A stretch of DNA of 64,000 nucleotides from Karstenula rhodostoma CBS 690.94 (Eukaryota > Ascomycota > Dothideomycetes > Pleosporales > Didymosphaeriaceae): contig MU001501.1 in NCBI GenBank assembly GCA_010093485.1, forward strand, positions 1,071,052-1,135,051, in the 5' to 3' direction. Below the pieces are notes generated by a model. That model was not told the origin of the DNA. It saw only the letters and a list, made by a program, of their open reading frames with translations, and did no database searches. The position numbers were made by a program, and so were the translations under genes. Shown here piece after piece: positions 40,933 to 42,865 of this stretch. Position 1 is the stretch's first letter. The number at the start of each line of letters is the position of its first letter.

Positions 40933-40960
40933 TGCATCAGCTGGGAATCGAACCCTGTCC
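40933..40960 (-). pseudogene. 3' fragment of a tRNA gene
   Basis: The minus strand reads a B box and T loop (GGGTTCGATTCCCAG) directly followed by an acceptor 3' strand CTGATGCA. The matching 5' strand GCATCAG and a D arm are absent in the 80 nt before the next tRNA gene. It is a fragment, not a full gene. Confidence 0.6.
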
Positions 40961-41021: not shown

Positions 41022-41026
41022 AAAAA
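41022..41026 (-). terminator. Oligo-T after tRNA-Gly
   Basis: Five T residues on the minus strand, 11 nt past the 3' end of tRNA-Gly, fit a Pol III terminator. Confidence 0.6.
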
Positions 41027-41037
41027 GTATTGAGACA

Positions 41038-41184
41038 TGCATCGGCCGGGCTAGTGATTATTAGTATACGCTCATATCTTTAGTAGATAGCTTAACTTAC
41101 AATCGAACCCGGGGCTAGCCGACATTGACTGGAGGCTATCCAGATCAATGGCAACGGCTAATTTTACCACTAAACCACCGATGC
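41038..41184 (-). tRNA. tRNA-Gly(GCC) with two introns
   Basis: Three exons: 41184-41149 (36 nt), 41122-41101 (22 nt) and 41050-41038 (13 nt), together 71 nt. The acceptor stem GCATCGG/CCGATGC pairs fully, with discriminator A. The D arm is GTTTAGTGGTAAAAT. The anticodon stem AGCCG/CGGCT pairs fully, with loop TTGCCAT. The T arm is CCGGG-TTCGATT-CCCGG. Intron 1 (41123-41148, 26 nt) sits at the canonical 37/38 site and folds into a hairpin (CATTGA...TCAATG with CTGG/CCAG). Intron 2 (41051-41100) splits the T arm after the T loop and has GT-AG intron signals. The two exon junctions restore a perfect tRNA. It lies 49 nt downstream of tRNA-Leu. Confidence 0.85.
41051..41100 (-). other. GT-AG intron-like insertion in the B box of tRNA-Gly
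   Basis: 50 nt. On the minus strand it begins GTAAGTTAAG, contains TACTAAT, and ends ATCACTAG. It separates GGTTCGATT from CCCGG. The signals match those of introns in nearby protein genes (for example GTAAGT...GCTAACTAATGCAG in bck1). Confidence 0.85.
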
Positions 41185-41186
41185 TG

Positions 41187-41190
41187 AAAA
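41187..41190 (-). terminator. T4 tract between tRNA-Leu and tRNA-Gly
   Basis: Four T residues lie 44 nt past tRNA-Leu and 2 nt before tRNA-Gly. This is weak for a fungal Pol III terminator. Confidence 0.35.
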
Positions 41191-41233
41191 GATGGAAGAC
41201 ATTCCCGAAACCCACTCTGAGAGCGGACGATAG

Positions 41234-41380
41234 TGATGAGAGTGGGACTCGAACCCACGCCACATACGTGACCAGGAAATAGTGTTAAGTAGACCTTAAC
41301 CTGGCGCCATAACCTAGGACTGTTAGTCGAGGTTTTGGTGTGGGAATGGATGATGAACATACCAACTCGGCCATCTCACC
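41234..41380 (-). tRNA. tRNA-Leu(TAA) with two introns
   Basis: Exons 41380-41363 (18 nt), 41313-41295 (19 nt) and 41276-41234 (43 nt) total 80 nt, a class II tRNA. The acceptor stem GGTGAGA/TCTCATC pairs fully with one G-U. The anticodon stem GCCAG/CTGGT has loop GTTAAGC, anticodon TAA. The variable arm is CAC-GTAT-GTG. The T arm is GTGGG-TTCGAGT-CCCAC. Intron 1 (41277-41294, 18 nt) is at the canonical 37/38 site and contains CTTAAC, the exact complement of the GTTAAG anticodon loop, as expected of a true tRNA intron. Intron 2 (41314-41362) sits in the D loop between the two conserved Gs. Confidence 0.85.
41314..41362 (-). other. GT-AG intron-like insertion in the A box of tRNA-Leu
   Basis: 49 nt. 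On the minus strand it begins GTATGTTCATC, contains the branch-like GACTAACAG, and ends TCCTAG. It separates GAGTTG from GTTATGGC, inside the A box and D loop. It shares no sequence with the tRNA-Gly insertion except the splice signals. Confidence 0.85.
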
Positions 41381-42865
41381 GTGATGTGATTGATGGGGAA
41401 AACTGCAAATGCGAGACATATATAGCAAATGATCAAAGCAATGGGAGACGACAGTGAGATTTCCTGTCGCACCAAAGACGGGAGCTATCTTGTGAAGACG
41501 GTGAGCCAGTGTTGGTGGCTAGGCTATGAGGGGAAGAATTTTTTCAAGTGCCCCGCTATGTGGACCTTAGACCCTATACCACCCCGAACCCCATCACAAC
41601 CCGAATTCCATGGCAGCCCCAATCAACAGTCTATACGCTCAACATGATACACCTGAAAATGCAATCGGCCGTGCAGAGAACCCCTCTTGGCTGGATTGTT
41701 TTACGTCCTACACACGGCTCGGCCATCTCTACGCGATCACAACACTGAGCCAGGAAACCTGCTTGGTGGCTGAATTCAGCATACAGAAGGTTGTTCCGGA
41801 CGCGTGCGGTGCTATAGTAGCCTTTGGACTGGAAGTTGCCGGACTGCACCGACTTCCTGCTACCTATCGTAACTATTCCTTCTACTACCGTGATAACTAA
41901 AGCACGAGGGACAACTTTCGCATCTTCAAAGACGCGCACATTCAAGAGCTCGTTGTTTTGTGAAATACACATCATTACCATCTCAATCATTAGCAAAGGG
42001 GCGGAAATGAAAGCCGATGCTATCCGTAAACCCTATCTTATATTTAGCTGCTCAAAGATATCATAGATACAAAAAATCATTATAGTACGAGTTACCTCAA
42101 AACACAATATATCAAGTAATTAGAGACTATCTAATTCTATAAACACTTCTATTGTCAATGTAAGGGTGTGCTCGAACAGTCCCAATCAAACTTACAGTCT
42201 CAGTCTCTGTGCGCTGTCTGGATCCGGAGCGACACCGTACAAACTCTCGTAAGGTACAGGGCAAACCTTGGATTTCCAAAAGATTTTTATCGGCGTCTAG
42301 CACCCCACTACTTAGCCATCTCACCCCGTCTCTCTCCTATACCGTGAGAGACACGGAGCTAATCCAAATATATAGTGCCCTGGTTCTTGAATTTGCATGA
42401 GAGACCTCAATAGGCCGGACCTATAGTCATACGAAATAAAAGAGCCCGTCGGAGTTCCGCGAACTCTGCAGGGTCGAGAAGACGAGTCGCTCACTTGCAA
42501 AGCATGTCATGTTATGAATTTCATGTGGTGCTTGGAAGAGCGATGCAGCGGTTTATGCCTTGGTAGGCAATCACCTTGGGATAACAAACATCTTCGTCTC
42601 CTAGTCTCGAGCACCTGAGTCAGTGTAGTGTGCGCGGCATACTTGGATTTTCCAGACTGGCTCATCTTCGCGTCTGTAGTGAACTTCACCATCATCACCA
42701 CGGAAAAACATGATATTTTAATCGGCCAGATACATTTCGACTGCTCAAGCTTAATAGATGCTACTAGTATTTACATGTCCGAAGCACGTCCAAGCCCCGA
42801 CGAAGTGTCAAGCCCATCAGCTCAACCAAGACACTGTGCTATGTACAAATCCTGTGTCACACACT
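41381..42865. other. Accessory sequence, no firm gene
   Basis: A 96-codon frame (41610-41900) and others have no recognisable motif. The 12-mer CTCGGCCATCTC at 41718-41729 repeats the 5' part of the tRNA-Leu (41366-41377). Sequence near 42000-42130 and 42350 is AT-rich. Confidence 0.4.
41418..41423 (-). promoter_or_regulatory. TATATA upstream of tRNA-Leu
   Basis: TATATA about 38 nt before the first base of tRNA-Leu. It could serve external Pol III or Pol II initiation. The spacing is only suggestive. Confidence 0.3.

Follow-up and report, generated by a model that had tools for sequence, protein, structure and literature searches.

Introns of nuclear tRNA genes are taught as substrates of TSEN, the usual tRNA splicing enzyme, and spliceosomal introns in RNAs made by RNA polymerase III (Pol III) are, to our knowledge, taught as a peculiarity of U6. 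Other fungal noncoding RNA genes resemble the genes described here in having mRNA-type introns, which reportedly interrupt U2 snRNA (Rhodotorula) and ascomycete rDNA; these are other RNAs, made by other polymerases than tRNAs. The U6 snRNA of Schizosaccharomyces pombe is described as a Pol III transcript with an mRNA-type intron that is spliced and is thought to have arisen via reverse splicing (PMC10484740). Cyanidioschyzon merolae and the Guillardia theta nucleomorph are described as having tRNA introns at unusual positions, with several in one gene (PMC3978253). The yeast SNR6 gene is described as combining an upstream TATA element and an intragenic A box with an extragenic B box past the terminator (PMC11346459, PMC5356446).

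Here, we describe two adjacent tRNA genes in a 64,000-nt stretch of Karstenula rhodostoma DNA (the window), together with a genome-wide set of similarly interrupted genes. The likeness to S. pombe U6 lies in a GT-AG intron of spliceosomal type in a short, here putative, Pol III RNA (PMC10484740), but U6 belongs to the spliceosome, whereas the hosts here are tRNAs of many isoacceptors, interrupted at many sites, most of which hold a second, TSEN-type intron as well. Unusual positions and multiple introns per gene are shared with Cyanidioschyzon and Guillardia; those introns, however, are treated as BHB mediated or as lacking a defined BHB, and the accessible text of PMC3978253 describes no pattern of GT-AG ends plus branch site. 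SNR6 is a U6 gene; in this genome its layout of TATA, internal A box, and B box past the terminator recurs at genes for tRNA-Gly, initiator Met (iMet), and Val(AAC). The accessible text of the open-access literature gave no account of nuclear tRNA genes with spliceosomal introns. The substrate (tRNAs) and the scale appear to be new; the intron class and the splicing of a Pol III RNA are already known. Very probably, the two window genes are working genes, each with one TSEN-type and one U2-type spliceosomal intron, that belong to the genome-wide set and are transcribed by Pol III, then spliced by the spliceosome, and then by TSEN.

Two tandem tRNA genes with two introns each

The locus comprises the following features, listed in the direction of transcription.

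41417..41424 (-), TATA element, starting 44 nt upstream of tRNA-Leu
41234..41380 (-), tRNA-Leu(AAG) with two introns (Rfam tRNA model, 34.9 bits; ARAGORN once the GT-AG insert is deleted)
41362..41373 (-), Leu A box, TGGCCGAGTTGG, already whole in the unspliced gene
41314..41362 (-), Leu GT-AG intron, 49 nt, GTATGT ... GACTAACAGTCCTAG, in the D loop after G18
41278..41293 (-), Leu canonical (TSEN-type) anticodon-loop intron, 16 nt (ARAGORN)
41245..41255 (-), Leu B box, GGTTCGAGTCC, intact
41187..41190 (-), T4 between the Leu and Gly genes, a short Pol III terminator
41038..41184 (-), tRNA-Gly(GCC) with two introns (ARAGORN once the GT-AG insert is deleted)
41124..41149 (-), Gly canonical anticodon-loop intron, 26 nt (ARAGORN)
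41051..41100 (-), Gly GT-AG intron, 50 nt, GTAAGT ... TATACTAATAATCACTAG, in the T loop, splitting the B box
41022..41026 (-), T5 terminator after Gly
40944..40954 (-), extragenic B box, GGTTCGATTCC, past the Gly terminator

An earlier, sequence-only reading had recognized two same-direction tRNA genes separated by 49 nt, both of which carry a canonical insertion alongside a GT-AG one. This anatomy is borne out (41234-41380 and 41038-41184), with the strand of both genes corrected to minus and the Leu anticodon, which had been read as UAA, corrected to AAG. ARAGORN detected no tRNA in either unspliced gene and returned complete tRNA-Leu(AAG) and tRNA-Gly(GCC) when the GT-AG insert was deleted; the Rfam tRNA model reaches unspliced Leu but not unspliced Gly. 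Both GT-AG introns carry a fungal branch site, and the insertions exceed chance, since three further Leu genes and four further Gly genes have them at the same place, with splice signals kept. The T4 between the genes and an upstream TATATA had likewise been noted correctly, except that the latter starts 44 nt, not 38 nt, upstream. The same reading had the insertions splitting a promoter box in each gene, so that neither would keep an internal promoter. That is true of the Gly B box (GGTTCGATT, then GTAAGT) and fails for Leu, in which the intron's first G takes the place of G19 and so leaves the unspliced A box matching the consensus at 8 of 8 positions. Leu keeps both its A and B boxes, and Gly has the extragenic B box, the surroundings of which resemble the 3′ end of a tRNA-Gly.

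A genome-wide set of GT-AG introns in tRNA genes

The genome searched spans 44.3 Mb in 29 contigs, with the window on contig C10. For one window gene, the most similar named proteins came from Paraphaeosphaeria minitans (92%) and Didymosphaeria variabile (91%), which places the fungus in or near Didymosphaeriaceae (Pleosporales). T-arm (B-box) matches followed by a T-run were listed, and 60 stretches were picked by eye and supplemented with four more. In a deletion test, GT..AG segments of 38 to 100 nt with a branch-like motif were removed and the remainder submitted to ARAGORN; 521 deletions at 74 loci gave 29 rows from 22 of the loci, several of them alternative deletions of one gene, and one (L120) was judged spurious. 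Six genes (three Phe, one Val, and two His) were read by eye. Together with the spliced-sequence and Rfam searches described below, this uncovered 28 tRNA genes with 31 GT-AG introns between them, at 14 sites when counted per tRNA family. The interrupted genes make up 28 of 106 distinct assembled tRNA genes, a nonexhaustive set in which genes of identical sequence were merged, the T-arm patterns required a near T-run, Rfam scored 62 of 1177 candidates, and one T-arm listing covered 100 of 103 matches. They encode Leu(AAG) (4 genes), Leu(CAG) (2), Gly(GCC) (5), iMet (2), Ala(CGC) (2), Glu(UUC) (1), Pro(UGG) (1), Pro(AGG) (2), Thr(CGU) (1), Phe (4), Val(UAC) (1), and His (3). The UGG anticodon of one Pro gene (L154) was read by eye, ARAGORN having given GGG.

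The sites are scattered over the tRNA. They lie in or beside the D arm in Leu (three sites), Glu, Pro, Ala, and Val; in the acceptor stem in Thr; at the 3′ edge of the anticodon loop in iMet; in the variable region in iMet and Phe; and in the T arm in Gly, Phe, and His. A search with the spliced Leu sequence retrieved five further Leu genes, four visibly split among the matches listed, whereas in the fifth (L014, 76% identity) an intron at base 10 confines the match to the sequence from that base on. The spliced Gly search yielded four further split genes, one uninterrupted gene, and two fragments, and among 54 Rfam tRNA matches GT-AG inserts were seen in an iMet gene (L071) and an Ala(CGC) gene (L072). 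Three Phe genes (L127, L145, and L146) contain three introns each, one canonical and two GT-AG, the latter separated by the 6-nt exon ACTGTG. In each of the three His genes found, the intron sits where the stem of the T arm meets the loop. The three iMet genes encode the same 72-nt tRNA after joining of exons, one being uninterrupted (L029) and the others having the intron after base 37 (L071) or base 45 (L150). Uninterrupted copies were also found for Pro(AGG), Pro(UGG), Thr(CGU), and Gly(GCC). A Gly(GCC) gene lacking a GT-AG intron was found just once (L022/L023; G000:C6:746816-747173); it adjoins a degraded Gly copy and has an unusual canonical intron of 38 nt with a T-arm-like inverted piece.

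Joined exons gave the expected tRNA in ARAGORN for 28/28 genes; of the unspliced genes, 22 gave nothing, 2 the correct isotype, and 4 an incorrect one.

A T-loop-intron pattern matched 6 times versus 5 in a reversed control, with 4 of the 6 being Gly genes; GGTTCAA gave 45 matches versus 38 in the control and no recognizable tRNA; and a D-arm pattern had 0 matches in viral contigs. Among the 64 stretches, L129, L134 (degraded Ala-like), L147, L151-L153, L160, L165, L166, and L172 contained no acceptable tRNA, and neither the tRNA-like L113, L119, L120, L128, L138, and L164, with long inserts, nor L171 (U6) was accepted as tRNA. L119 (955-1103), L120, L113, L138, and L164, several of them on contig C9, have acceptor, D, and T arms with inserts of roughly 85 to 220 nt in the anticodon region; such elements may be repeats derived from tRNAs or else unknown RNAs made by Pol III. 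Two B-box-like repeats were also encountered, of which AGTTCGAGTCAACAATCAGAAAA... has about 10 copies and AGTTCGAATCCCAC.CTGATCTTTACC... about 8.

The introns have mRNA-type signals

The 31 introns are 48 to 67 nt long, and each allows exactly one GT-AG placement. Their 5′ sites are GTAAGT (14), GTGAGT (6), or other GT types (11), and they end in CAG (17) or TAG (14). CTRAY with its A at 9 to 12 nt from the 3′ end occurs in 28/31, the other three having a near variant (CTAAG or TTAAT) at that distance. The branch-site distance was not imposed by the search, a branch-like motif being required in the deletion test. GT-AG ends were a filter in that test and are therefore not independent evidence for the genes found only there; they were no filter for the Leu and Gly genes, which came from broken BLAST matches, or for L071 and L072. 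Three mRNA introns of the window, picked by eye for comparison, are similar (51, 48, and 44 nt; branch A at 9 to 10 nt from the end), the 51-nt one ending in TTACTAACATGTATCAG. Judging by the translations, their hosts are presumably a sugar transporter gene (51 and 44 nt) and a kinase gene (48 nt). A regular expression for mRNA introns showed no clear enrichment over the whole window, with 17 matches against 12.7 expected (maximum, 19). In consensus GT-AG ends, branch-site distance, and mRNA-like length and signals, the tRNA introns agree with the U2 type.

These signals also bear on the idea that the GT-AG ends are coincidental and that the introns are ectopic ones, like those of Cyanidioschyzon or the Guillardia nucleomorph, removed by TSEN or by a relaxed endonuclease. 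Ectopic tRNA introns without a defined BHB are described for the latter (PMC3978253), 26/28 of the interrupted genes contain a canonical intron in addition, and 7/31 introns reach 3 of the 4 pairs of the BHB central helix when wobble pairs are allowed, the highest value observed. However, the full 4-bp central helix is absent from 31/31 introns at every placement, and an endonuclease leaves unexplained both the CTRAY motif at its constant distance and the mRNA-like length. None of the 14 sites occupies the canonical position 37/38; the nearest, in iMet_1, follows gene base 37, which is base 38 in tRNA numbering. We regard endonuclease cleavage of the GT-AG introns as very improbable and continue with U2-type spliceosomal introns as the preferred reading.

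Conservation differs between exons and introns. Exon ends are 0.98 to 1.00 identical within Leu, Phe, Ala, Pro, and His, and an exon identity of 0.69 in 4/10 Gly pairs is an artefact of GlyGCC_3 being one base short. Intron identity is 0.50 to 0.71 in Leu, Phe, and Ala and 0.61 to 0.90 in Gly, Pro, and His, compared with a mean of 0.48 (maximum, 0.60) for shuffled introns and a mean of 0.58 for 349 pairs from different families. The Phe and Ala introns (0.50 to 0.61) are no more alike than introns of different families and thus lend no support to common descent. Introner-like elements of fungi also place many new spliceosomal introns in one genome, as near-identical copies. A search with a 381-nt stretch of the window gave 14 matches, all of them Leu or Gly tRNA genes or fragments thereof, and no dispersed near-identical copy of either window intron outside tRNA paralogs. 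An introner origin was accordingly rejected for this pair of introns. Their lack of copies and the scatter of sites would fit a possible origin by reverse splicing.

The U6 snRNA gene of this genome (Rfam, 74.8 bits; L171 228-331, G000:C3:1527700-1528250) has a GT-AG intron as well, 54 nt long and placed after ...CGCTCAA. A B-core-like AGTTCGAGTCC lies within this intron, and another B core lies past the U6 T-run.

Promoters, terminators, and choice of polymerase

A TATAW at -20 to -70 precedes 23/28 interrupted genes, 60/78 other tRNA genes (distinct sequences), and 4.6% of random places in the window; a T4 is located 0 to 43 nt downstream in 28/28 interrupted genes. As both elements are common to tRNA genes here, the Leu-Gly locus looks ordinary for this genome. 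Leu combines all the elements of a type 2 Pol III gene (A box, B box, and T-run terminator) with an upstream TATA, and Gly has an A box at 7/8 positions, the split and the extragenic B boxes, and the T5 terminator, with no TATA of its own.

Of the families here, Gly alone has an intron that breaks the B core. The core remains intact in His and at the second intron of the three Phe genes because the AG of the intron supplies the G of GTTCGA. In 4/5 interrupted Gly genes, a B core occurs 37 to 84 nt downstream, past the first T-run; GlyGCC_3 (L024), its B box likewise split, lacks a downstream core, as does the uninterrupted Gly gene. Overall, a B core within 150 nt downstream accompanies 7/8 genes that lack an internal one (five Gly and three iMet) versus 5/98 others (Fisher P = 2.5e-7), a comparison biased by L150, L159, and L161, which were fetched for that box; without L150 the former figure is 6/7, and L159 and L161 are counted among the five, for three of which the box belongs to the next tandem tRNA gene. 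Random 250-nt stretches contain a B core in 0.75% of cases. The A box is broken before splicing in LeuCAG_2 (4/8 versus 7 in the spliced form), the Val and Glu A boxes lose one position each, and that of Thr is whole in the second exon, with the intron preceding it, so that its apparent score of 5/8 is an artefact. Two Val(AAC) genes (L159 and L161) and three iMet genes (L029, L071, and L150) have unusual internal B boxes, and extragenic B cores lie 26 to 49 nt downstream of all five, with or without a GT-AG intron.

This arrangement is relevant to the earlier proposal that a single Pol II, or mixed, transcript contains both tRNAs, is spliced like an mRNA, and is then cut into tRNAs. GT-AG introns usually belong to Pol II transcripts, and the closeness of the pair, with the T4 alone in between and no TATA for Gly, would suit one transcript. 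Nevertheless, interrupted single genes elsewhere mostly have their own TATA and all have a T4, the Leu A and B boxes are kept, split or weak internal B boxes go together with extragenic ones, and U6, a Pol III transcript (PMC10484740), also contains a GT-AG intron in this genome. A Leu-Gly pair elsewhere was not among the matches of the window-stretch search, so the tandem looks incidental. With TATA and T4 being general to tRNA genes here, a Pol II origin is unnecessary, and we consider it highly unlikely. What stands of the proposal is the sequence of spliceosome-type removal followed by the tRNA endonuclease, with which the anatomy agrees; the Pol II transcript and the loss of both internal promoters find no support. 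Under Pol III transcription, which we favor, Gly, having no TATA of its own, may be expressed by dicistronic read-through of the short T4.

The T-run of Leu(AAG) and Leu(CAG) genes is unusually distant, at 36 to 43 nt from the tRNA end (window 41185-41233; L010-L014), and the 3′ trailer behind Leu genes starts alike (CTATCGTCCGCTC...) in at least L009-L013. Elsewhere, Ile(AAU) and Glu(CUC) genes lie 5 nt apart with no T4 between them (L006/L008; G000:C19:794969-795119) and are probably one dicistronic Pol III transcript.

Proposed maturation route

Introns, signals, restored folds, copies with and without introns, and promoter and terminator elements are all directly visible in the DNA. From these we infer that Pol III would transcribe each gene from a TATA plus A box and an internal or extragenic B box. 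The nuclear spliceosome would remove the GT-AG intron of about 50 nt by intron definition, enabling the tRNA to fold. RNase P and RNase Z would then trim the ends, and TSEN and ligase would act last, removing the anticodon-loop intron. The choice of polymerase, the role of the spliceosome, and the step order are thus predictions from sequence; spliceosomal removal is placed first because, until it occurs, no normal T arm can form in Gly, Phe, or His and no normal acceptor stem in Thr.

Likely dependence of translation on the splicing machinery

GT-AG introns split all four Phe genes retrieved by a spliced-Phe search and each of the three His genes found. Our nonexhaustive searches turned up no uninterrupted gene for Phe, His, or Leu(AAG), and a list of 97 GGTTCGANYCC..T4 matches contained no uninterrupted His T arm. 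If the assembly and the searches are complete, Phe and His codons would be readable by spliced tRNAs alone. The interrupted genes might instead be dead, unexpressed pseudogene copies. Gly(GCC), iMet, Pro(AGG), Pro(UGG), and Thr(CGU) also have copies free of GT-AG introns, so the interrupted genes of these isoacceptors need not be functional. Our nonexhaustive searches yielded no such copies for Phe, His, and Leu(AAG), though, and the interrupted genes, with exon ends conserved while introns vary, assemble into the expected tRNA throughout, unlike pseudogenes. We find the pseudogene explanation scarcely credible. The data suggest that tRNA making here may rely on the mRNA splicing machine besides the usual tRNA splicing enzyme. 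Taking working genes as the preferred reading, it is likely that translation in this fungal lineage is spliceosome dependent, with every Phe, His, and Leu(AAG) gene bearing at least one spliceosomal intron, repeated gains at 14 sites, and promoters rebuilt, their boxes being completed by the intron's G or AG or moved past the terminator.

The misses of ARAGORN on 22/28 unspliced genes imply that annotated tRNA sets of such genomes may have serious gaps. Gene pairs with and without the intron would bear on how introns are gained, possibly by reverse splicing into abundant nuclear RNAs. If our interpretation is true, these genes would allow the need of the spliceosome for Pol II, a cap, or exon definition to be tested directly, two splicing systems would operate on one RNA of about 100 nt, with exons of 6 nt, and mRNA splicing would be coupled to decoding.
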